Assembly (NCBI GenBank): GCA_947458265.1
Contig: CANGYF010000003.1
Coordinates: 1 to 64,000 of the forward strand
Direction: 5' to 3'
DNA length: 64,000 nucleotides
From: Betaproteobacteria bacterium
GTDB taxonomy: Bacteria; Pseudomonadota; Gammaproteobacteria; Burkholderiales; CAIKXV01
Under the pieces are notes generated by a model, which had not been told where the DNA came from, made no database searches, and saw nothing but the letters and a program-made list of their open reading frames with translations. Below, piece after piece: positions 29,550 through 45,930 of this stretch (position 1 is the stretch's first letter; each line of letters opens with the position of its first letter). The position numbers and the translations under genes were made by a program.

Positions 29550-30524
29550 CTACTGCAGCGTGATCTTCGCAGCCTTGATCACCTTGCGCCACGCTTCGAA
29601 CTCTGCGCGCATGAACTTGGCCAGCCCTTCGGGCGAAGTCGGTGCCGGTTCCGCGCCCTGGCTCGCGAACAGCTCGGACATGTCGGGCTGGTTGAGCGCT
29701 TTCACCGTTTCGGCGTTGACCTGGTTGATGATGTCCTTCGGCATTGCAGCTGGGCCGAACAGCCCGTACCAGGTCGTGTACTGGAAGCTCTGCAGCCCCG
29801 GTGTCTCGGAGACGGTGGGCACGTCCGGCGCGGCCGGGGAGCGCTTTGCACTGCCGACGGCGATGGCGCGCAGCCGTCCCGACTTGATGTGCGGCAGCAC
29901 CGACGGCATGCTGTTGAACAGCAGCGAGACCTGGCCGGATATGACATCGGTCATGGCCGGCGTGGTGCCTTTGTAGGGGATGTGCACCATGTCCATGCCG
30001 GTCATCGATTTCAGCAGTTCCATCCCCATGTGGTTCGGGCTTCCCGGCCCGACCGATGCATAGTTGATCTGCCCCGGCTTCGACTTCGCGAGCTTGACCA
30101 GCTCGCTCACCGTTCGCACCGGCAGCGACGGGTGCACCACCAGGATCTGTGGGTTGATCACCAGCAGGGCGATCGGTGCCAGGTCGGTGAACACGTCATA
30201 GGGCAGCTTGCTGACCGCCGGCGCTACGGCCATCGAGCCCGATGTGCCCAGCAGCAGCGTGTGCCCGTCGGGTGGCGAGCGCAGCACCAACTCGACGCCG
30301 ACCACGCCGCCGGCGCCGGGGCGATTCTCGATCACCACCGGCTGCTTCCAGGCATCGCTCAGGCGCTGCCCGAGCGCACGGGCGACGAAATCCACCGGGC
30401 CCCCGGGCGGGAAGTGCACGACGATACGCAGCGAGCGGTTGGGAAAACTCTGCGCATGGACGGACGCCGCCCCGGCCAGCAGGCCGATGGCAACGCCCAG
30501 GCGCAACGACCTGGACCTGTACAT
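29550..30524 (-). CDS. Bug-family TTT substrate-binding protein (6 of 9)
   Basis: 324 residues. The ATG at 30524 follows CGGAGGAGCATCGA on the minus strand and starts the signal peptide ending ASVHAQS. Hallmarks are FPNRSLRIVVHFPPGGPVD, VVIENRPGAGG, PDGHTLLLG and IPYKGTTPAMTDVISG. It is the first gene of a minus-strand row (Bug, unknown, NMT1-like, deacetylase) and divergent from an amidase gene. The Bug protein probably takes up the compound that this cluster converts. Confidence 0.93.
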   Translation of the reverse strand: MYRSRSLRLGVAIGLLAGAASVHAQSFPNRSLRIVVHFPPGGPVDFVARALGQRLSDAWKQPVVIENRPGAGGVVGVELVLRSPPDGHTLLLGTSGSMAVAPAVSKLPYDVFTDLAPIALLVINPQILVVHPSLPVRTVSELVKLAKSKPGQINYASVGPGSPNHMGMELLKSMTGMDMVHIPYKGTTPAMTDVISGQVSLLFNSMPSVLPHIKSGRLRAIAVGSAKRSPAAPDVPTVSETPGLQSFQYTTWYGLFGPAAMPKDIINQVNAETVKALNQPDMSELFASQGAEPAPTSPEGLAKFMRAEFEAWRKVIKAAKITLQ

Positions 30525-30653
30525 TCGATGCTCCTCCGGACGATCTGTTCTTGTATGCATTGAATCTAGCACGCCGTGCCGCTGCCGCTGCCGGAACACG
30601 CTGCGGGACGATTCGTGTACTGTCGATCGACCGCATTCGACGAGACTGGCTCC

Positions 30654-32096: not shown

Positions 32097-32373
32097 CGCA
32101 TCCACCGGCTGCGCGACTTCGCGCCGATTAATCAGGTCGATTGAGCCGGGACGGACCGCCCGCCGACTGGTCGTCGAGCCGACCATACGTTCGGACCGTT
32201 ACCGGCTCCGGATCGGACCGGCGCAGTCGATAGACGGACACGCCATGCCCGGTGCCTGTCGGCGTGCCGGCGTAGTACCATCCGCGCCTTTGCCCTGCAA
32301 CCCGCAGGCAATTATAGAGGCGCGACCGTGTCGCTGCCGCCAGAGCCCGCCCGGAGACAGCATCCTGCCCGCC

Positions 32374-32895
32374 TTGCGCTACCTGCCACCTGCCCGATGG
32401 TTGCACTGGATCACCGCCGCCCTGATGCTGGTGATCATAGTCGCTGGGCTCTGGATCGTATACTTCGAGCCGGCCGACCAAGCGTTCAAGATGCGCCTTT
32501 ACAACGTGCACGAGAGCCTGGGGGTGATCGTATTCGTCCTGGCACTGGCGCGCATCGTCTATCGTCGGCTGAATCCGCCGCCTCCGCTGCCAAAAGATAC
32601 GCCGGCATGGGTCCGCGTGTGCGCGCATTTGACCCATGGCGCGTTATACGCCCTGCTGCTCCTGATGCCGGTGATCGGATTCCTCGCGACCAATGCCTGG
32701 GGTTTCCCGCTGTCGGTATTCGGCGTGCTGCCGCTGCCATCTCCGATTGGCAAGAATGAGTCGTTGGCGCAATGGCTTTCGCTGTTCCACTGGTGCGGGG
32801 CGATCACGATCATCCTGCTGATCGGAGGCCATCTGGCCGGCGTGGTGTACCACACGTTCGTCCGCCGGGACGGCCTCCTGAAACGAATGACCTAG
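32374..32895 (+). CDS. Cytochrome b561-type di-heme membrane protein
   Basis: About 173 residues from a TTG at 32374; the start is uncertain because no ATG or GTG is in frame nearby (a CTG at 32365 lies 7 bp after GGAGA). Four transmembrane helices carry the expected heme His residues: RWLHW in helix I, NVHESLG in helix II, LTHGALY in helix III and GGHLAGVVYH in helix IV. The family moves electrons across or within the inner membrane, between quinol and periplasmic acceptors. It is 12 bp before the OpgH-like gene and heads the long plus-strand row to 40.0 kb. Confidence 0.85.
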   Translation: MRYLPPARWLHWITAALMLVIIVAGLWIVYFEPADQAFKMRLYNVHESLGVIVFVLALARIVYRRLNPPPPLPKDTPAWVRVCAHLTHGALYALLLLMPVIGFLATNAWGFPLSVFGVLPLPSPIGKNESLAQWLSLFHWCGAITIILLIGGHLAGVVYHTFVRRDGLLKRMT

Positions 32896-32907
32896 CAGGC
32901 GATACAG

Positions 32908-34707
32908 ATGTCGAACGAAACACCCTCCGCCGACCAACTGGCCGCGGCTCCCGATAGCAACCGCCCCTCGATGACGTGGCGCCGCGTCGGCTTTGCCACG
33001 CTGGTCCTGTCGACCTCAGGCGCGCTGCTCTGGTTGATGGCGCTGACCCTTTTCGTCGAAGGTGTCGACCCGATCGGACTGCTGATGCTGGCGCTGTTCG
33101 CGCTGACCCTGCCATGGACCGCGATCGGATTCTGGAACGCGGTGATCGGCTTTGCCGTAATGACCTTCAGCCGCGACCCGGCCCGGGCCGTATCGCCTGA
33201 CCTGTGCGACGTTCCGGACGACCTGCCGATCGACACCACCACCGCGCTGCTGGTGTGCATCCGCAATGAGGATACGCGGCGGCTGCAGCGAAACCTCGAA
33301 TGGATGCTGCAGGGAATCGTCAGCACCGGCCATGCGTCTGCCTTTCACCTCTACATGCTGAGCGACAGCGACGACGCAGCCATTGCCGCTGCCGAAACGG
33401 AGACGGCCGCGGCGCTGTCCGCGCGCTTCGACGGCCTTGTGCAGGTGACCTACCGGCAGCGTGCCGTCTGCACCGGCTATAAAGCGGGCAACATCCGCGA
33501 CTTCTGCGAACGCTGGGGCGACCGCCATCCATTCGCGATCGTTCTCGATGCCGACAGCGTGATGACCGCGCAGTCGATGCTGCGGCTGGTGCGCATCATG
33601 CAGGCGCGTCCGCACCTCGGCATCGTGCAGACGCTGGTGACCGGCCTGCCGAGCGCGAGCCCGTTTGCACGGGTGTTCCAGTTCGGCATGCGCCTTGGCA
33701 TGCGGTCGTACACGCTCGGCTCCGCATTCTGGCAGGGCGATTGCGGTCCGTACTGGGGCCACAACGCGATCCTGCGTGTCGCGCCGTTCACCGCGCACTG
33801 CCACCTCCCGGTGCTGCCCGGCGGCGCGCCGCTCGGCGGCCATGTGCTCAGCCACGACCAGGTCGAGGCGGTGCTGATGCGGCGCGCCGGCTTCGAGGTG
33901 CGTGTGCTGCCGGTCGAGGATGGCAGCTGGGAAGAGAACCCGCCGGCGCTGCCCGAGTTCATCCGTCGAGACCTGCGCTGGTGCCAGGGCAACATGCAGT
34001 ACCTGAAGCTGCTCGGGCTGCGCGACCTGCTGCCGGTCAGCCGCGTCCAGCTGGTGCTGGCGATCGCGATGTACTTCGGCTCGCTCGCCTGGCTGCTGCT
34101 CATGTTCGCGGGGCTGGTGCGACAGATGCCGCTGCGCCCCGACACCGGGTTGATGCTGTTCGCGGCCATCCTTACGATGACCTTCGCGCCGAAGCTGGCC
34201 ACGCTGTTCAACGTGCTGGCGCGCGCGCGGCTGCGTGCCGCCTTCGGCGGGACGCTGCGCATCCTGGCCAGTGCCTTCATCGAACTGCTGCTGACCACGC
34301 TGCTGGCGCCGGTCTCGGCGGTCGCCATCAGCATCTTCCTGGTCGGACTGCTGTTCGGCCGCCGCGTCGGCTGGACCTCCCAGCAGCGCGACGCCGCGCA
34401 GGTGCCGCTGTCTGTGGCGGTGCGCTGCCTCTGGCCACAGGCGCTGACCGGCCTGGTCCTGGCTGGCGCGACGCTATGGATCGCGCCCGGGGCGTTCTGG
34501 TTCGGCCTGCCGATCTACCTCGGCCTGTTGCTGGCGATACCGCTCGCGATGGCTACGGCCTCGCCCGCCCTCGGTCGGACGATGGCGCGCGCCGGTCTTT
34601 GCCGCACGCCCGACGAGACATGGCCGGCTGCGGCGGTGGCGACCGACGCCGTTGCCGCCGAACTGTTCGCACCGGGCCTCGAGCCTTCACTGGCGGGGAA
34701 CGGCTGA
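32908..34707 (+). CDS. opgH: OpgH/MdoH-like glucans biosynthesis glucosyltransferase
   Basis: 599 residues, shorter than the enterobacterial OpgH (about 850). Two N-terminal transmembrane helices precede a GT2 domain with IRNED, LDADS (Asp214, Asp216), QGDCGPYWGHNAIL, GGHVLSHDQVEA and the acceptor-binding RRDLRW (Arg357, Trp358). Several helices follow (about 370-570). This pattern is specific for the osmoregulated periplasmic glucan synthase, which makes beta-1,2-linked glucose chains from UDP-glucose and exports them. No opgG is adjacent; instead an unknown exported protein starts at the stop codon. Confidence 0.9.
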   Translation: MSNETPSADQLAAAPDSNRPSMTWRRVGFATLVLSTSGALLWLMALTLFVEGVDPIGLLMLALFALTLPWTAIGFWNAVIGFAVMTFSRDPARAVSPDLCDVPDDLPIDTTTALLVCIRNEDTRRLQRNLEWMLQGIVSTGHASAFHLYMLSDSDDAAIAAAETETAAALSARFDGLVQVTYRQRAVCTGYKAGNIRDFCERWGDRHPFAIVLDADSVMTAQSMLRLVRIMQARPHLGIVQTLVTGLPSASPFARVFQFGMRLGMRSYTLGSAFWQGDCGPYWGHNAILRVAPFTAHCHLPVLPGGAPLGGHVLSHDQVEAVLMRRAGFEVRVLPVEDGSWEENPPALPEFIRRDLRWCQGNMQYLKLLGLRDLLPVSRVQLVLAIAMYFGSLAWLLLMFAGLVRQMPLRPDTGLMLFAAILTMTFAPKLATLFNVLARARLRAAFGGTLRILASAFIELLLTTLLAPVSAVAISIFLVGLLFGRRVGWTSQQRDAAQVPLSVAVRCLWPQALTGLVLAGATLWIAPGAFWFGLPIYLGLLLAIPLAMATASPALGRTMARAGLCRTPDETWPAAAVATDAVAAELFAPGLEPSLAGNG

Positions 34708-35693
34708 TGCGCAAGATCCTTGTCTGCTCGCTGGCGGCCGCTGCGCTGGCTGGAACGGTCGGCTGTACGATCATCGACCCGGCGCGCCGGGCGACGATGC
34801 CGGTGCAGGCCGAGTTCATCAACGCGAGCCAGCCGACGCTGTGCGCGGAAGAAGACAACGTCTATGTGAAGGTCGTGGGCACCGGCATCTCCGCGTTCCG
34901 GATCGTGGCCGAGCATCCGCCCTACATCGCCTCGGTGGTCAAAGACAGCACGGAGCCCGACTTCACGAACTGTGACATGTCGAACGACCCGGTCTTCAAG
35001 TTCGAACCTCGGACGGTGACCCTGTACGAGGACGCCCATACACGGCTGGTGGGCCACGCATTCCCGACGTTCTGGCGGCCGGAGTCGGTCGACTTCCGCG
35101 TGGGTGACCGCGTGGAACGCGGCCTGCATCTCGTGCAACTGGTGCGACTGGCGGTTCCCGGCCCGGAGCCCAAGCCGCGCGATGTCGAGATCCTCGTGCT
35201 CTATCCGTCGGACGGCTACTGGCGTCCGAAGCCGTTGCCGCCATCGACGCTGCCCGACAGTGCCTATGGCAGTTCCTTCCTGTTCGGCCCGGTCGAGCAC
35301 GACGGTCGCCCGTATGTGGCACTGCGCGAAGTCACCTTCGACCCGGTACGCGAGAACTTCGACCTGGTGTTCCGCGATGGTTCGCGCGGGCGCCTGGCCA
35401 TCACCGAGGTATCGCGCAAGCAACTCGTACTGTCGATGTCGCTCGACACGCCGGTGTCGTCCGGCCGGCCGTTCGCGGCGCTGCGGTCGATGTTCGTCAC
35501 GACGGAGCAGTCGGACGTGGCGCTGGTCGCCTGGAACGCCGGGGCTGCCGGCAAGCCGTCGACCGCACCGGTTCTTTCCTTCGAGAGCATGCGCGCGCCA
35601 GCCGCGCGCTTCGGCCGCAGCGAGCCCTCGCACCACAACCTCAGCGCCCCGGATATCGTGTTCGATGGCTTCACTGCCGTCGCTCCCCGCTGA
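34707..35693 (+). CDS. Uncharacterised exported (possibly lipoprotein) partner of OpgH
   Basis: 328 residues. The ATG overlaps the OpgH stop by one base (TGATG), so translation is coupled. The N-terminus MRKILVCSLAAAALAGTVGC is a signal peptide with a Cys at residue 20 in a weak lipobox (TVGC). The mature part is strand-rich, without catalytic motifs that I recognise; two Cys (about 46 and 91, the latter in FTNCDMSND) could pair. It does not resemble OpgG, OpgD or OpgC in the parts I can recall. The coupling suggests a role in making, transferring or decorating periplasmic glucan. Confidence 0.75.
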   Translation: MRKILVCSLAAAALAGTVGCTIIDPARRATMPVQAEFINASQPTLCAEEDNVYVKVVGTGISAFRIVAEHPPYIASVVKDSTEPDFTNCDMSNDPVFKFEPRTVTLYEDAHTRLVGHAFPTFWRPESVDFRVGDRVERGLHLVQLVRLAVPGPEPKPRDVEILVLYPSDGYWRPKPLPPSTLPDSAYGSSFLFGPVEHDGRPYVALREVTFDPVRENFDLVFRDGSRGRLAITEVSRKQLVLSMSLDTPVSSGRPFAALRSMFVTTEQSDVALVAWNAGAAGKPSTAPVLSFESMRAPAARFGRSEPSHHNLSAPDIVFDGFTAVAPR

Positions 35694-35726: not shown

Positions 35727-36554
35727 ATGCCGCCCGAAATCGACGTGACTGCCCATCCTTCCGCTGAGCCGGAGCCTGCCGGCGGCGTGCAATGGCAGGC
35801 ACTCCTCGATGGCGACATCGAGGCGCTCGCGCAATGGCCGCACGACCCGCTGGTGTCGTTGTATGGACCGCTGTGTGCGGGACCACGGGACCGGCCGCTG
35901 GTGGTGGGCCATCTCGCGCAGAGCCTGGACGGCCGCATCGCAACCGCCAGCGGTATTTCGCGCTGGCTCAGCGGTGCCGAAGACCTGCTGCACACCCACC
36001 GCATGCGCGCGATTTCGGATGCCGTCCTGGTGGGCGTGAATACCGTCCTGCACGACGATCCGCAACTGACTGTGCGCCTCTGCCTCGGCCGCCATCCGGT
36101 GCGGGTCGTGATCGATCCCGAGCGGCGCCTCGATGGCACGCAGCGCGTGTTCATGGACGATGTCGCGCCGACGCTGCTGCTGGTGGCAGCGGGTTTCGGA
36201 CATGAAGGCGAACGCCTCGGCCATGCGCAGGTCGTGCCGATCGAACGCGGCGCATGCGGCCTCGATCCTCGGGAGATCTGCCGTGTCCTCGCCCAGCGTG
36301 GCCTGCATCGGCTGCTGGTCGAAGGCGGCGGCATCACCGTGTCGCGATTCCTCGACGCGGGCGCGCTGCACCGGCTGCAGGTCACGGTGGCGCCGGTGAT
36401 CCTGGGTTCGGGCCGTCCCGCCATCACGTTGCCCGAGATCAGCGATCTCGAGCAGAGCCTGCGTCCGCGCACCCGGCGCGTGATGCTCGGCGAAGACGTG
36501 ATGATCGAATGCGATTTCGAGGCAGTCGACGCAGTACAGGCTGGCGATGGCTGA
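35727..36554 (+). CDS. RibD C-terminal/DHFR-like pterin or pyrimidine reductase
   Basis: 275 residues. After about 60 variable residues comes the RibD_C fold: [61 protein letters not shown] and [17 protein letters not shown], which together bind NADPH and a pyrimidine or pterin substrate. There is no deaminase domain, so it is not the full riboflavin RibD. It opens a run of five coupled genes that includes a PTPS homologue, so reduction of a pterin-like intermediate is plausible. It overlaps the next gene by 8 bp. Confidence 0.85.
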
Positions 36555-37563
36555 TCGCGATGCCGGCGATGCCGGCGGGGCCGCTGCCCCGGTCGCGTCG
36601 TCGAGGTCGTTCTGGACCACCGGGCCGTCCCGTGGCGAACTGCGCGACGCACCGCTGCCACCGCCCGGGCCGGGCGAGGTGCTCGTGCGCGCGCTGTACA
36701 GCGGCATCAGCCGCGGTACCGAGTCGCTGGTGTTCCGCGGCGAGGTGCCTTCTACACAGTGGCAGGCGATGCGCTGCCCCTTCCAGCAGGGCGACTTTCC
36801 GGCGCCGGTGAAATACGGCTACTGCTCGGTCGGTGTCGTCGAGGCCGGCGTCGATGAACTGGTCGGGAAGCACGTGTTCTGCCTGCACCCGCACCAGGAT
36901 CGCTACGTGGTGCCGGCTGCGTGGACCACGGTGCTGCCCGGGTCGCTTCCCGCACCGCGCGCGGTGCTTGCAGCGAACATGGAGACCGCTGTGAACGGTC
37001 TCTGGGACGCCGGTCCACGCGTGGGCGACCGGATCACGGTCGTCGGTGGTGGCGTGGTCGGCCTGCTGGTCGCGACGCTGGCAGCGCGCATCCCCGGGAC
37101 CGAGGTCGAACTGGTCGATCCAGACCCGCAGCGGGCGGCGGTCGCCGGCCGCCTGGGTCTGCGCCACGTGCTGCCCTTGGATGCCGCTGGCGACCGCGAC
37201 ATCGTCGTGCATGCGAGCGGCCATCCGGACGGCCTCGCCACCGCACTGGCGCTTGCCGGCTTCGAGGCGACCGTGCTCGAGATGAGCTGGTACGGCGACC
37301 GGCGGGTGCCGGTGCCGCTGGGCGAAGCGTTCCACAGCCGCCGTCTGGTGCTGCGCTCGTCGCAGGTGGGCAGCGTCGCCACCGCGCAGCGCGCGCGCTG
37401 GGACCACCGCCGGCGCATGGCGCTGGCTCTCGACCTGCTCGCCGACGACGCCTTCGATGCACTGGTCGAAGCACGGGTTGCCTTCGACACGTTGCCGGCC
37501 GCGATGGCCCGGCTCGCCCACTCGCCCGACGGAGCCTTGTGCACCGTCGTGACCTACCCCTGA
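36547..37563 (+). CDS. MDR-superfamily (zinc-type alcohol dehydrogenase-like) oxidoreductase
   Basis: 338 residues; a GroES-like N-domain ([16 protein letters not shown]) then a Rossmann domain with [15 protein letters not shown] (about 160-174) for NAD(P)H. The catalytic zinc Cys of alcohol dehydrogenases is replaced in GISRGTES, so no active-site zinc is expected; related sequences with GISTGTE occur in BchC. It is therefore a reductase or dehydrogenase acting without the classic zinc site. The 8-bp overlap with the RibD-like gene and 15-bp gap to the PTPS homologue place it firmly in the operon. Confidence 0.85.
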
Positions 37564-37578
37564 TCCTGGAGCATCCGC

Positions 37579-37983
37579 ATGTACAGCCTTGCCGTTTCCG
37601 ACCACATCATGATCGCGCACAGCTTCACCGGAGAGATCTTCGGCCCGGCGCAGCAGTTGCACGGCGCCACCTACGGGGTGGAGATCGACGTGAGGCGCGA
37701 GGCGCTCGACGAGAACGGGCTGGTGTGCGACATCGGCCTTGCGTTGCAGGCCCTGCGCGACGTACTCGCCGGGCTCAACTACAAGAACCTCGACACGCTG
37801 CCCGAACTGGCCGGCCGCAACACCACCACCGAGTTCATGGCAGGCGAGATCTTCCGCCGCCTGCAGGTGCGCATCTCCGCCGGTGACTTCGGGCCCGGTA
37901 CCGCCGGGCAACTCGCGTCGATGCGGGTCACGCTGCGCGAGTCGCCAGTGGCCTGGGCGAGCTTCGAAGGCGCATTGCGTTGA
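37579..37983 (+). CDS. Divergent 6-pyruvoyl-tetrahydropterin synthase/QueD homologue
   Basis: 134 residues, the normal length of the family. The T-fold start (HIMIAHSFTGE) and the helix/strand order fit, and TTTEFMA matches the conserved pterin-binding Glu region. Key residues differ: the zinc motif HGH reads HGATY (His28, Gly29, Ala30), no Cys occupies the nucleophile position just before it (FGPAQQ), and the catalytic His of LDHxxLN is absent (LNYKNLD). The fold probably still binds a pterin-like ring, but the textbook reaction is unlikely. It overlaps the glycosyltransferase start by 4 bp. Confidence 0.8.
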   Translation: MYSLAVSDHIMIAHSFTGEIFGPAQQLHGATYGVEIDVRREALDENGLVCDIGLALQALRDVLAGLNYKNLDTLPELAGRNTTTEFMAGEIFRRLQVRISAGDFGPGTAGQLASMRVTLRESPVAWASFEGALR

Positions 37984-39077
37984 TCGGAGCGCCAATCGCG
38001 ATGGTCGTGCCGGGCGCGCTGGACCAGTTCACCGGCGGCTATCTGTTCGACCGCCGGGTGGTCGACGGCCTGCGCGCCGCCGGGCGCAGCGTGCGCGTGG
38101 TCGAGTTGCCCGGCTGCTATCCCGACGTCGACGCGTCGACCCGTGCCGCCGCGGCAGCGGCCCTGGAGGCACTGCCTGGCGACAGTGTCGCGGTGATCGA
38201 CGGGCTGGCCCTGCCGGGATTCGCAGACTGCCTCGATACGCAGGCTCGCCGCCTCCGGCTGCTCGGCTTCATCCATCATCCCCTGTCGCTCGAGACCGGC
38301 ATCGCGCCGGCGTTCGCCCGGCGCATGGATGCGACCGAGCGGCGGCTGTGGCCGATGCTGCGCGGCCTGCTCTGCCCGAGCGCACATACTGCCCGCTGCA
38401 TCGCCGACGCGGGCATCGACCCGGCGCGCATCGAGATCGTGCCGCCTGGCAATGACCTGCCGGTGTACAAGCGGCCGGGTGACGACCGGCCGGGGTACGA
38501 CCAGCCGCCAGCTGGCGAACACGATGCGGACACACTGCGGCTGCTGATGGTTGGCAGCGTCGTTCCGCGCAAGGGACACCTGTCCCTGGTCGAGGCGCTG
38601 GCCGGACTGAAGCACCTGCCCTGGCGGTTGACCTGCATCGGCAGCCTGGAGCGCGACACGGCAGCGGTGGTCGCATTGCGCGCCGCGATCGAACACCATG
38701 GACTCGGCGACCGGGTGGACCTTGCCGGCGAGCGTCCACCGGCAGCGCTGGCCGATGCGTGGCACGACGCCGACGTGTTCGTGCTGCCGTCCAGCCACGA
38801 GGGTTATGGCATGGCCTATGCCGAAGCGATGGCCCATGGTTTACCGGTGATCGGCACCACCGCCGGTGCCATCCCGGACACCGTGCCCGAGACGGCAGGG
38901 TTGCTGGTCGCACCTGGCGACGTCGCCGCGCTGCGCGAAGCGCTGCACCGGATGCTGGTCGATCCACCGTTGCGCAGGCACCTGGCTGCCGGCGCGCGGC
39001 AGGCCGCCGCGGCGCTGCCAGACTGGCCGGCTGCGGTACGGCGCTGGGCCGAAGCCGCCGATCGGCTCGCGTCATGA
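37980..39077 (+). CDS. Glycosyltransferase family 4
   Basis: 365 residues, with a TTG start overlapping the upstream stop (TTGA). An in-frame ATG lies at 38001. GT-B fold: VPGALDQFTGGYLFDRR at the N-terminus, VVPPGNDLPVYK between domains, LLMVGSVVPRKGHL at the start of the donor domain, and SSHEGYGMAYAEAMAHG with the Glu pair of the ExxxxxxxE nucleotide-sugar motif. It transfers a sugar from an activated donor, retaining configuration. In this operon the acceptor could be the pterin-like product or the glucan made by OpgH upstream. It overlaps the methyltransferase gene by 4 bp. Confidence 0.88.
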   Translation: MIGAPIAMVVPGALDQFTGGYLFDRRVVDGLRAAGRSVRVVELPGCYPDVDASTRAAAAAALEALPGDSVAVIDGLALPGFADCLDTQARRLRLLGFIHHPLSLETGIAPAFARRMDATERRLWPMLRGLLCPSAHTARCIADAGIDPARIEIVPPGNDLPVYKRPGDDRPGYDQPPAGEHDADTLRLLMVGSVVPRKGHLSLVEALAGLKHLPWRLTCIGSLERDTAAVVALRAAIEHHGLGDRVDLAGERPPAALADAWHDADVFVLPSSHEGYGMAYAEAMAHGLPVIGTTAGAIPDTVPETAGLLVAPGDVAALREALHRMLVDPPLRRHLAAGARQAAAALPDWPAAVRRWAEAADRLAS

Positions 39078-40015
39078 CAGGCTTCGATGCAGGCTGGCTT
39101 GCGCTGCGCGAGCCGTTCGATGCCGCCGCGCGCGACGGTGAACTGGCGGCACGGTTCGTGGAGGCAGTCGTTGCACGTGCTGACGCACGCAGCGGATCGC
39201 AGGCTCCCTCCAGGCCGGCATCCTGGCGGCCGCATGCCTGCCGGCTGGTGGACCTCGCGGCCGGCAGCGGCGCCAACCTGCGCGTGCTGGCACCGCTCGT
39301 GCCCGGCGACCAGGACTGGCTGCTGGTCGACCACGATCCCGAGCTGATCGCGGCCCAGGCGCGCGAACTGGGGCGCTGGGCAGTCGCGAACGGCTGGAGT
39401 TGCCGTGTCGCTGAAGGGGGGCTGGTGATCGATGCCGGCCGCGCTCAGTGGCGCGTGCGCGCGCGTCGGCTCGACCTGCAGGGATCGTTCGATCAGCTCG
39501 TGCTCGGATCCTTCGATGGCGTGACCACCACCGCCTTCCTCGATCTCGTCTCGGACGCATGGCTCGGACGGCTGGCCGATGCCATTGCACGCGCGGCAGT
39601 ACCGCTGCTGGCGACCCTGACCGTCGATGGCCTGCGCGAATGGTCTCCGACCGACGCCGGCGATGCCGCGATCGCGTCCGCGTTCGAGCGTCACCAGCAG
39701 GGTGACAAGGGGTTCGGTGCTTCGCTCGGCCCAGCGGCCACCGAGCGCCTGCGGGCGAAGCTCGATGCGCGGGGCTGCATCACCAGTGCCGTGCGTGCAG
39801 ACTGGCAGGTCGGGCCGGGCCGCGGCGAGCCAGCAGGCTCGATGCTGATCCGGATGATCGACGAGGCTGCTGCGGTCGCGCGCGAAGTGGAGCCTGCAGC
39901 CACACCGGAGATCGACGCATGGGTTGCCCGGCGCAGGGCGCAGGTCGCGCAAGGGACGCTGTCGCTGTGCGTCGGCCACCAGGACCTGCTCGGGCTACCG
40001 CACGTCGAAGACTGA
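39074..40015 (+). CDS. Class I SAM-dependent methyltransferase, last gene of the pterin-type operon
   Basis: 313 residues; ATGA overlap with the glycosyltransferase. SAM-binding motif VDLAAGSGANLRVL at about 60-73, then WLLVDHDPEL with the acidic residue for the ribose, and LVLGSFDGVTTTAFLDLVSDAW. The C-terminal part (PTDAGDAAIASAFERHQQGDKGFG) looks like a substrate cap seen in small-molecule methyltransferases. The acceptor is unknown. Its place after a GT4 gene fits a late modification step. It is convergent with the binding-protein gene at 40055. Confidence 0.82.
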   Translation: MTGFDAGWLALREPFDAAARDGELAARFVEAVVARADARSGSQAPSRPASWRPHACRLVDLAAGSGANLRVLAPLVPGDQDWLLVDHDPELIAAQARELGRWAVANGWSCRVAEGGLVIDAGRAQWRVRARRLDLQGSFDQLVLGSFDGVTTTAFLDLVSDAWLGRLADAIARAAVPLLATLTVDGLREWSPTDAGDAAIASAFERHQQGDKGFGASLGPAATERLRAKLDARGCITSAVRADWQVGPGRGEPAGSMLIRMIDEAAAVAREVEPAATPEIDAWVARRRAQVAQGTLSLCVGHQDLLGLPHVED

Positions 40016-43671: not shown

Positions 43672-43716
43672 GTTCATTCGACCGACGTTCATTCAACAGA
43701 CCTTCATTCAATCTTC
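43672..43716. repeat. Three imperfect 15-bp tandem repeats
   Basis: Units GTTCATTCGACCGAC (43672-43686), GTTCATTCAACAGAC (43687-43701) and CTTCATTCAATCTTC (43702-43716) share the core TTCATTC. The last unit includes the stop codon of the Bug gene on the minus strand. The array lies between that gene and the MmgE/PrpD gene, upstream of the start chosen for the latter. Confidence 0.75.
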
Positions 43717-44681
43717 GCGCCGGTCAGCGCGATCAGCTTGCCGTATTTCTCGAAGTCCACGCGCAGGATGCGGTTGAACTCGTCGACCGTGGTCGGTGCC
43801 GGATCGAGTGCCTGCTTCGCGAGGGTGGACATCACCTCCGGGATCGATAGCGCCTGGTTCATCTCGGTGTTCAGCCGGTCGATGATTGCCCTCGGTGTCC
43901 CGGCCGGCGCGAACACGCCGATCCAGGGGTTCATGTCGTAGCCGGGCAATCCCGCCTCCGAAATCGTGGGTACACCCGGCAGGGCCTTCGCGCGCGAAGA
44001 CGAGCCGACGCCGAGCGGGCGCAGCTTGCCGGCCTGGATCTGGCTGATCACCGTGCCGAGGGTGGCGAACGACGCCTGAGTCTCGCCCCCCAGCAGCGCT
44101 GCGACCTGCGGCGCACCGCCCTTGTACGGCACATGGGTGATGTCGATGCCGGCCATCGAGATCAGCAGCGCCATCTGCAGGTGCGGTGCGCTGCCGTTAC
44201 CCGACGAGGAATAGTTGATCTGGCGCGGCTTCGCCTTCGCCAGCGCGATGAAGTCCTTCAGCGTCTTCACCGGCAGCGCGGGGTGGACTGTCAGCACTCC
44301 AGGCTGCGAGGAGAGCATGCCGACGCCGGTGAAGTCCTTCATCGTGTCGTAGGTCAGCTTCTTGCCGTACAGGTGCGCATTGCCGACATGGGTGGTCGAG
44401 TGGACCATCAGCGTGTAGCCATCGGCCGGCGCCTTGGCCACCAGGTCAGCACCGACTACGCCCGATGCGCCGGCCCGGTTGTCGATCACGAACTGCTGGC
44501 TGAGGGTGCGCGACAGCTCCTGCATCACGACGCGGCCGACGATATCGTTCGAGCCGCCGGCAGGCCAGGGGATCACCACGCGCACCGGCTTGGCAGGCCA
44601 GGCCTGGGCGAGGGTGATCGAGGGCAGGGCGATACAGGCAGCGGCCAGTGCCGCGGCTGTGCACGACAGCGGTGTGTTCAT
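43704..44681 (-). CDS. Bug-family TTT substrate-binding protein (7 of 9)
   Basis: 325 residues; ATG at 44681 after GGAGGAGAAGCACC. Signal peptide to about ITLAQA. Motifs: WPAKPVRVVIPWPAGGSND (Asp in the ligand loop kept), FVIDNRAGASG, ADGYTLMVHS, VPYKGGAPQVAALLGG. It leads a minus-strand row: Bug, MmgE/PrpD, alpha-hydroxy-acid oxidase, signal-less binding protein. It is divergent from the Bug gene at 44947, so two Bug genes share a 265-bp promoter region. Confidence 0.93.
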   Translation of the reverse strand: MNTPLSCTAAALAAACIALPSITLAQAWPAKPVRVVIPWPAGGSNDIVGRVVMQELSRTLSQQFVIDNRAGASGVVGADLVAKAPADGYTLMVHSTTHVGNAHLYGKKLTYDTMKDFTGVGMLSSQPGVLTVHPALPVKTLKDFIALAKAKPRQINYSSSGNGSAPHLQMALLISMAGIDITHVPYKGGAPQVAALLGGETQASFATLGTVISQIQAGKLRPLGVGSSSRAKALPGVPTISEAGLPGYDMNPWIGVFAPAGTPRAIIDRLNTEMNQALSIPEVMSTLAKQALDPAPTTVDEFNRILRVDFEKYGKLIALTGAKIE

Positions 44682-44946
44682 GGTGCTTCTCCTCCGGATC
44701 CGGTTTGCCGCCCTCGCCGCGCGGGATCGGAACGGGCGCCGGCGCGCCATCCGTTCGTCACGCCTTCATCGGCGTCCTGTACTGGGACAGGTCGCCTGAA
44801 TAAGGACGGTTGTTCCATGCGACTGTACCGGAGTGTGGCAGTCGGTGCCGGCACGGGCCGGATGTCATCGGGCGGGCTTTCGCCATTCGCGCGCTCGGGT
44901 AGTATCGCGCCCCCGCGCCGGAGCGCGCGATCGACCGGAGGATGAC

Positions 44947-45930
44947 ATGGAACGTTGGGTGCATCGCACTGGAGGATGGCTGGGCGCGGTTTTCGCAGCG
45001 GCGGCTGCGTCGGCCGCATGCGCGCAGGCGCCGGCCTATCCGGCCAAGCCCGTCCGCCTGCTGGTGCCATTCGCTGCCGGCGGCGCGACCGACGTACCCA
45101 CGCGCATCCTTGCCACGAAGCTCGCCGAGCGCATGGGCAGCCCGTTCATCATTGACAACCGCCCCGGCGCCGGTGGCGCCATCGGCACCGCGACCGTGGC
45201 CAGGGCCGAGCCCGACGGTTACTCGGTGCTGGTCACTGCCACCCCATTCGTGGTCAGCCCCCATGTCTATCCCAAGCTCGGCTACGACGCGCTGAAGGAC
45301 TTCGCGCAGGTTGCGATGTTCGCGTCCTCGCCGAACGTGCTGGTGGTGCATCCGACCCTGGCGGTGAAGTCGGTGAAGGAACTGATCGCGCTCGCGCGTC
45401 CCCAGCCCGGCAAGCTCGACTGGGCTTCGTCGGGCGTCGGCGGCGGGCAGCACCTGTTCGGCGAACTGTTCATGTCGATGGCCGGCATCAAGGTCACCCA
45501 TGTCTCGTACAAGGGCAGCGGTGCCGCGATCGCAGACGTGCTCGGCGGACAGGTGAAGATCGGCTTTCCGGGTATCGCGATCGCGCTGTCCCACCACAAC
45601 GCTGGCCGGCTGCTGGCACTGGGCGTCACGACCGCGCAGCGCTCGGCGCAGATGCCGGACGTGCCGAGCCTCGCCGAGGCGGGGGTGCCCGGCTACGACG
45701 CGACGTTCTGGATGGGCCTGTCGGTACCGGTGAAGACCGCGCGCACGGTCATCGACGCCTTGCATCGCGAGACGGTTGCGCTGGTGAAGGCGCCCGACGT
45801 GGTCGAGGGCTTCCGCAAGGCCGGTACCGACATCGCCCCGTCGGGCCCGGATCAGTTCCGCGCGTTCGTGCTGTCCGAGTACGAGAAGTGGGGCAAGGTG
45901 GTGCGTGCGGTGGGCATCAAGCCGGAGTGA
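44947..45930 (+). CDS. Bug-family TTT substrate-binding protein (8 of 9)
   Basis: 327 residues; the ATG at 44947 follows GGAGGATGAC. The signal peptide ends near ACAQAP. Motifs: YPAKPVRLLVPFAAGGATD, FIIDNRPGAGG, PDGYSVLVTA, VSYKGSGAAIADVLGG. It is followed by a strong palindrome and a convergent racemase-family gene. No regulator or membrane component is adjacent. Confidence 0.93.
   Translation: MERWVHRTGGWLGAVFAAAAASAACAQAPAYPAKPVRLLVPFAAGGATDVPTRILATKLAERMGSPFIIDNRPGAGGAIGTATVARAEPDGYSVLVTATPFVVSPHVYPKLGYDALKDFAQVAMFASSPNVLVVHPTLAVKSVKELIALARPQPGKLDWASSGVGGGQHLFGELFMSMAGIKVTHVSYKGSGAAIADVLGGQVKIGFPGIAIALSHHNAGRLLALGVTTAQRSAQMPDVPSLAEAGVPGYDATFWMGLSVPVKTARTVIDALHRETVALVKAPDVVEGFRKAGTDIAPSGPDQFRAFVLSEYEKWGKVVRAVGIKPE

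Follow-up and report, generated by a model that had tools for sequence, protein, structure and literature searches.

The PTPS-IV gene cluster and its conservation

We analyzed a stretch of 64,000 nucleotides (the window; positions 1 to 64,000 of the forward strand of contig CANGYF010000003.1, assembly GCA_947458265.1, Betaproteobacteria bacterium) that carries five co-directional genes around a homolog of the PTPS-IV type. They belong to a cluster of a widespread, functionally orphan kind that is known in part, and of which the window holds a variant. The five genes are as follows.

35727..36554, + strand, stand-alone RibD_C reductase of 275 amino acids (PF01872, 1e-38)
36547..37563, + strand, MDR-type NAD(P) oxidoreductase, BchC-like (Pfam and NCBIfam matches below cut-off)
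37579..37983, + strand, PTPS-IV (COG0720) homolog with the signature FGPAQ (PF01242, 1e-21)
37980..39077, + strand, GT4 glycosyltransferase with a TTG start (PF00534, Glycos_transf_1, 5.9e-29)
39074..40015, + strand, class I S-adenosylmethionine (SAM)-dependent methyltransferase (AlphaFold fold matches)

The spacings between these open reading frames (ORFs) were recomputed as -8, 15, -4 and -4 bp, exactly as given in an earlier reading made from the sequence alone (the sequence-only reading), and the profile matches listed above agree with its RibD-like, PTPS and GT4 family calls. The MDR protein matches the Pfam model ADH_zinc_N under cut-off (0.00096), and its best NCBIfam relative, BchC, also scores far under cut-off (9e-15). 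The GT4 relatives carry an EX7E-type motif in 65 of 73 cases by a simple pattern. The fifth protein has no match in Pfam or NCBIfam; in a confident AlphaFold model (predicted local distance difference test, pLDDT, 92.9) it takes the fold of class I SAM methyltransferases, with 431 PDB matches at E ≤ 0.001. Its relatives match Methyltransf_12/25, above cut-off in L139, and 53 of 65 show the motif I pattern, so that the earlier call of a SAM methyltransferase also stands.

An alignment of the MDR protein was used to scan 84,980 species genomes, and at least 582 relatives were found; all counts out of 80 loci refer to the best 80 of these. Absences in the loci are upper bounds because contig ends cut some clusters, and the family profiles were cut at E ≤ 1e-10, at which divergent genes may be missed. 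The mdr gene is present in 80 of the 80 loci because it was the query, ptps in 75, gt4 in 73, mt in 65 and ribD in 57, and 51 loci have all five genes. It is evident that mdr-ptps-gt4-mt is a real conserved unit. All four genes are present in 65 of the 80 loci, with identical order and strand in 65 of 65, across records labelled in their titles as Proteobacteria, Actinobacteria, Gemmatimonadetes and Acidobacteria. The distance matrices of ten gene pairs are correlated (r 0.56-0.85, with 0 of 999 permutations as high), values that still include common species descent. Thus, a search for the gene order bears out the claim that the genes form one unit and are found together elsewhere. Gene content, order and conservation are direct observations here, as are the motifs and the absences in the searched sequences reported below.

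The family cluster is often larger than the five genes that the sequence-only reading had proposed. A CDP-alcohol phosphatidyltransferase occurs in 60 of the 80 loci, a flippase-like protein in 40, GTP cyclohydrolase II (GCH II) in 38 and a creatininase in 34, followed by an FkbM methyltransferase (17), an MdoH-like protein (16) and a secreted protein (5); in the window the additions are the MdoH-like glycosyltransferase and the secreted protein. Of the 75 PTPS-bearing loci, 69 hold one or more of the three genes for GCH II, creatininase and RibD_C. The earlier remark that no GTP cyclohydrolase is present is right locally but does not extend to the relatives, 38 of which carry GCH II, the riboflavin-type enzyme, and not GCH I.

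In a draw of 300 genomes of the order, MDR was matched in 12 (E ≤ 1e-10), and eight of the nine same-genus genomes, the window's own among them, show such a match; a draw of 398 phylum genomes gave MDR in 27, again including the window's own (E ≤ 1e-40). A divergent version of the cluster, with an MDR protein about 53% identical, was found in L022 (6912-15967, same-genus genome G144). Its layout is fkbM, mdoH and mdr-ptps-gt4-mt, with ribD on the opposite strand, then GCH II and creatininase. Two versions of the cluster therefore exist within one genus, since L022 diverges and owns GCH II and creatininase. Another locus (L023, genome G140) carries ribD, mdr, ptps, mt and gt4 plus a CDP-alcohol transferase. 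The cluster is also found on plasmids. Six of 20 plasmid records with PTPS were inspected (L137-L142), from Thiodictyon, Methylosinus (with mdoH), Agrobacterium, Microbacterium, Streptomyces and a Rhodobacteraceae strain. All six have MDR and PTPS with a methyltransferase downstream, which in Methylosinus is a hypothetical protein whose methyltransferase match is weak; GT4 is absent from the Rhodobacteraceae plasmid cluster and RibD from that of Streptomyces. The family names of the cluster genes were confirmed by the annotations in these six records and by Pfam on L053.

The PTPS-IV protein and the precursor-type genes

The FGPAQ signature lies at residues 21-25 of the window PTPS and is found in 82 of 85 PTPS homologs. 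The neighborhood also agrees with PTPS-IV, as a RibD_C gene lies two genes away with MDR alone between them. PF00925 (GCH II) is absent from the window cluster, and in the family it is a frequent neighbor (38/80 loci) rather than a strict criterion. Of the proteins with a solved structure, SCO6650 from Streptomyces coelicolor (PDB 3d7j, deposited as uncharacterized) is the closest; it matches over residues 1-133 at 6.7e-42 with FGPAQ aligned. With the QueD-like protein of the same genome as reference, 83 of 85 homologs have Ala in place of the third zinc His (HGH to HGA), and 83 of 85 have Ala at the Cys position. The C-terminal Glu, which presumably anchors the pterin ring in relatives, is unchanged in all 85. 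These patterns suggest that the PTPS-IV protein probably binds a pterin-like ring, without PTPS or QueD chemistry. The QueD and PTPS-I, II and III roles were rejected, since the motifs CxxxHGH, CxxxxxHGH and ExxHGH are absent. The window protein also lacks the canonical PTPS motif that the tetrahydrobiopterin pathway calls for; sepiapterin reductase lay outside the search. In the six plasmid records the PTPS-IV protein is annotated as 6-carboxytetrahydropterin synthase (6/6), with a queuosine term in four. The queuosine-type annotation is likely a misannotation, because members of the family do not carry the QueD motif.

The best PDB relatives of the RibD_C protein are 6p8c (7.8e-28) and 2azn (2.1e-23), by name reductases of ribosylaminopyrimidine intermediates. 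The window protein has RibD_C only and no deaminase domain, so it is not a bifunctional RibD, and the deaminase motif was found in none of the 57 RibD_C ORFs of the relatives by a simple pattern. A lone RibD_C domain with likeness to solved members is what a stand-alone diaminopyrimidine reductase of the archaeal or fungal type has, and the protein scores below the NCBIfam equivalog cut-off. By this likeness the reductase would act on a ribosylamino intermediate. Because the reductase lacks a deaminase domain, the precursor is likely a diaminopyrimidinone that retains its 2-amino group, and thus pterin-like.

Riboflavin synthesis from GTP begins with GCH II, a formamidase and RibD. In this synthesis the formylated intermediate is deformylated by BrbF, a proven formamidase of the creatininase family (PMC9478397). 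The GCH II position corresponding to Tyr105 of Escherichia coli (aligned to 2bz0) was read in 37 loci, L022 included and L035 and L091 left out; the GCH II of L035 reads Tyr by eye, and that of L091 is broken off. The position is Tyr in 24 of the 37 and Met or His in 13 (L048, L049, L066, L067, L080, L082, L084, L087, L096, L098, L099, L101 and L103). RibD_C is present in 24 of 24 Tyr-type loci and creatininase in 13 of 24. Among the Met/His-type loci, creatininase is present in 13 of 13 and RibD_C is absent from the cluster in 11 of 13. A Met-type enzyme of S. coelicolor reportedly releases the formylated intermediate, and the presence of creatininase in Met-type loci would be consistent with this. 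The pattern may reflect one or few evolutionary events, since all 13 loci are actinobacterial by title.

Upstream and membrane-side genes

Three further genes on the + strand lie directly upstream of the ribD gene in the window, with gaps of 12, -1 and 33 bp.

32245..32895, + strand, cytochrome b561 (Ni_hydr_CYTB), a possible accessory member (PF01292, 3.6e-32; ORF given from 32236)
32908..34707, + strand, MdoH-like membrane glycosyltransferase, GT2 (NCBIfam MdoH models)
34707..35693, + strand, secreted protein or lipoprotein of a family without a name, companion of the MdoH-like gene (signal peptide by eye)

The unit probably extends upstream of ribD to these three genes. The start of cytochrome b561 is the in-frame ATG at 32245, picked by eye, from which the frame is open. 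The GT2 protein exceeds the cut-offs of two NCBIfam MdoH models (540.5 against 419 bits and 494.3 against 328 bits). The secreted protein has no Pfam match, and its beta-rich model, of middling confidence (pLDDT 71.8), matches no fold in the PDB at E ≤ 0.001. No promoter or terminator signal above shuffled sequence was found. On either side of the region lie three ORFs that by eye are of the Bug/TctC periplasmic solute-binding type (29550-30599, 43704-44750 and 44833-45930), and homologs of the first recur in related loci.

The complete order mdoH-secreted protein-ribD-mdr-ptps-gt4-mt was found in four same-genus genomes (L015, L016, L017 and L019) and in G293, a member of another family; the contigs of L018 and L020 hold part of this order, and that part is present. 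The MdoH-like gene adjoins the cluster in L015-L017, L019, L021, L022 and others, and the secreted protein is found in L015-L019 and L021. L021 and L027 are one contig (equal in length, with a 300-base piece in common), each counted in both the set of 85 PTPS homologs and the set of 95 loci used for recurring neighbors. One MdoH-type cluster, a kind otherwise mainly betaproteobacterial, is in a record titled Chitinophaga pinensis (L029), possibly a mislabelled bin.

The catalytic motif of CDP-alcohol transferases is present in 60 of 60 cluster phosphatidyltransferases, and the flippase-like protein is LPG_synthase_TM (PF03706, 1.7e-38 by Pfam on L053). Four MDR loci without PTPS (L030, L032, L046 and L089) also carry the phosphatidyltransferase. 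Other recurring neighbors are sulfatase-like (22 of 95 loci), YceI-like (15, named by eye) and cytochrome b561 (14) genes. In the window genome, which is 97.22% complete, no PF03706 flippase protein was found, and the search for the cluster-type phosphatidyltransferase gave one short local match of 25 bits. Unlinked copies of the missing partners elsewhere in this genome were searched for and not borne out beyond one creatininase. The window version is thus a variant without a cluster cyclohydrolase, phosphatidyltransferase or flippase, which has the MdoH-like GT2 and the secreted protein instead.

MdoG had no match in G000, G012, G144, G293 and G670 (the last two probably one assembly), with a positive E. 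coli control, and it is present in three Halomonas-type genomes (G671-G673). Classical MdoGH periplasmic glucan synthesis was rejected for the window, as its MdoG partner is absent. The Halomonas-type genomes keep both the MdoH-like and the phosphatidyltransferase/flippase sets. Mutual exclusion of the two sets (P = 0.003, Fisher's exact test) is a weak idea, because the loci are related and seven of them hold both, all Halomonas or near kin by title. The MdoH-like GT2 and the secreted protein may be a second route to export or anchor the product.

A proposed pathway and related systems

We consider it somewhat probable that the locus is a PTPS-IV biosynthetic cluster that turns GTP into a glycosylated, methylated pterin-like compound, membrane-linked or exported. 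GTP would be opened by GCH II to 2,5-diamino-6-ribosylamino-pyrimidinone 5'-phosphate, with a cluster-borne enzyme in many relatives and, in the window, most likely the housekeeping RibBA. The stand-alone RibD_C would reduce the ribose to ribityl, leaving the 2-amino group in place, and MDR and PTPS-IV would process the ribityl compound or a pteridine derived from it. GT4 would then attach a sugar and the methyltransferase would methylate the compound, giving an end product that is both glycosylated and methylated. In many relatives the CDP-alcohol phosphatidyltransferase and the flippase-like protein would place the product into or across the membrane, a role that the MdoH-like GT2 and the secreted protein may take in the window lineage. 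The GTP-derived ring chemistry suggested by the sequence-only reading is likely, with GCH II in 38 of the 80 loci.

Several points weigh against this pathway. Each reaction, the reaction order, the product and all activities are what we infer from the genes, and the reaction of PTPS-IV is unreadable from its homologs because the third zinc His and the catalytic residues are lost. The best 80 loci are biased towards the window's MDR. Seven of them pair MDR with at most one of the other four core genes, and five of these seven (L030, L032, L039, L046 and L089) lack PTPS; among the nine same-genus genomes, G104 (84% complete) gave no match to MDR. A dedicated GCH II was not found in the window genome, whose two PF00925 genes are both on contigs other than that of the cluster: one, on C14, is RibBA by both domain models, with a folE-like ORF (by eye) adjoining; the other, on C24, is a degenerate RibBA-like frame in a riboflavin operon, with neighbors that read as riboflavin synthase and full-length RibD. 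The single creatininase of the genome is unlinked to the cluster. Furthermore, the 13 Tyr-type loci with creatininase carry it where a formamidase should be needless, and the absence of RibD_C from 11 of 13 Met/His-type loci (seven of the 11 Streptomyces by title) means that the reductase is supplied elsewhere or is not essential. Cluster creatininases score best against the MftE and creatininase models and far weaker against ArfB, all under cut-off; that of L053 reaches 19.2 of the 180 bits needed for ArfB. Their formamidase role is therefore a guess.

The prominence of membrane genes in the accessory set (CDP-alcohol transferase 60/80, flippase-like 40/80, MdoH-like 16/80), together with the sulfatase-like (22/95), YceI-like (15/95) and cytochrome b561 (14/95) neighbors, would also suit a ribitol-containing glycan or glycolipid. 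RibD_C would then lead to ribitol phosphate, GT4, the MdoH-like GT2 and the phosphatidyltransferase would assemble the product, and the PTPS-fold protein would serve in binding or as a scaffold. We regard this as unlikely: GCH II, present in 38 of the 80 loci, would serve no evident purpose in supplying ribitol, RibD_C is closest to reductases of a pyrimidine intermediate, and the Glu presumed to anchor the pterin ring is invariant. GCH II and RibD chemistry is also known to feed the F420 chromophore, and a link of PTPS-IV to archaeal F420 appears as an unpublished remark, given without data, in PMC5041015. A role in the synthesis of F420 or another deazaflavin is nonetheless very improbable, given that the clusters also occur in Halomonas and Betaproteobacteria and that none of the families found in at least 10 loci looked like a radical-SAM FO synthase (by eye, one representative each; no CofG/CofH profile search was made). 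That unrelated genes happen to lie in a row by chance could be argued from how common the five families are and from our knowing of no single pathway that holds all of them, but the order kept in 65 of 65 four-gene loci across phyla and the correlated distances between gene pairs already refute it.

The proposed GTP-to-pterin pathway can be extended to a more speculative form, which we consider doubtful. In it, the CDP-alcohol phosphatidyltransferase would join the ribityl chain of a ribityl-pterin, or of its pyrimidine precursor, to phosphatidic acid. Glycosylated, methylated and flipped outward, the product would be a membrane-anchored pteridine of a new class, a redox-active group working with the recurring cytochrome b561 and YceI neighbors; in the window lineage an exported glycan of the MdoH-like type would have replaced the phospholipid anchor. 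If the membrane reading is true, the cluster would yield a lipid-linked cofactor or pigment of a kind not seen before. In any case, the conserved set with GCH II, creatininase, reductase, phosphatidyltransferase and flippase-like protein turns the orphan PTPS-IV family into a stepwise hypothesis.

The sequence-only reading was too strong in calling the gene set undescribed, since a PTPS-IV neighborhood with PF00925 and PF01872 is in print as AGeNNT cluster-node 62 (PMC5445326) and a member structure, 3d7j, is deposited. Node 62 and our cluster are alike in FGPAQ, in the adjacent RibD_C and, for the relatives, in the adjacent PF00925. The lines on node 62 name PF00925 (called FolE2) and PF01872, and not MDR, GT4, methyltransferase, CDP-alcohol transferase, flippase or creatininase; the window differs from node 62 in lacking GCH II and in having the MdoH-like GT2 and the secreted protein. 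The fuller cluster was not found in the open-licence literature, with subscription papers outside that scope, and the literature searched gave no product for PTPS-IV genes and, as the sequence-only reading had held, no named pathway for the gene set. SCO6650 (3d7j) belongs to the same PTPS subfamily as the window protein. The MdoH-like GT2 upstream in the window resembles MdoGH glucan synthesis, from which the absence of MdoG sets it apart. The toxoflavin genes (GCH II, RibD and a methyltransferase) have a GTP-derived ring and methylation in common with the cluster, but are not known to include PTPS-IV, GT4 or MDR. At the start of the riboflavin pathway, GCH II, the BrbF/ArfB formamidase and RibD match the enzyme families of the cluster's three precursor genes, whereas the cluster reductase lacks the deaminase domain and the cluster continues with MDR, PTPS-IV, GT4 and a methyltransferase.

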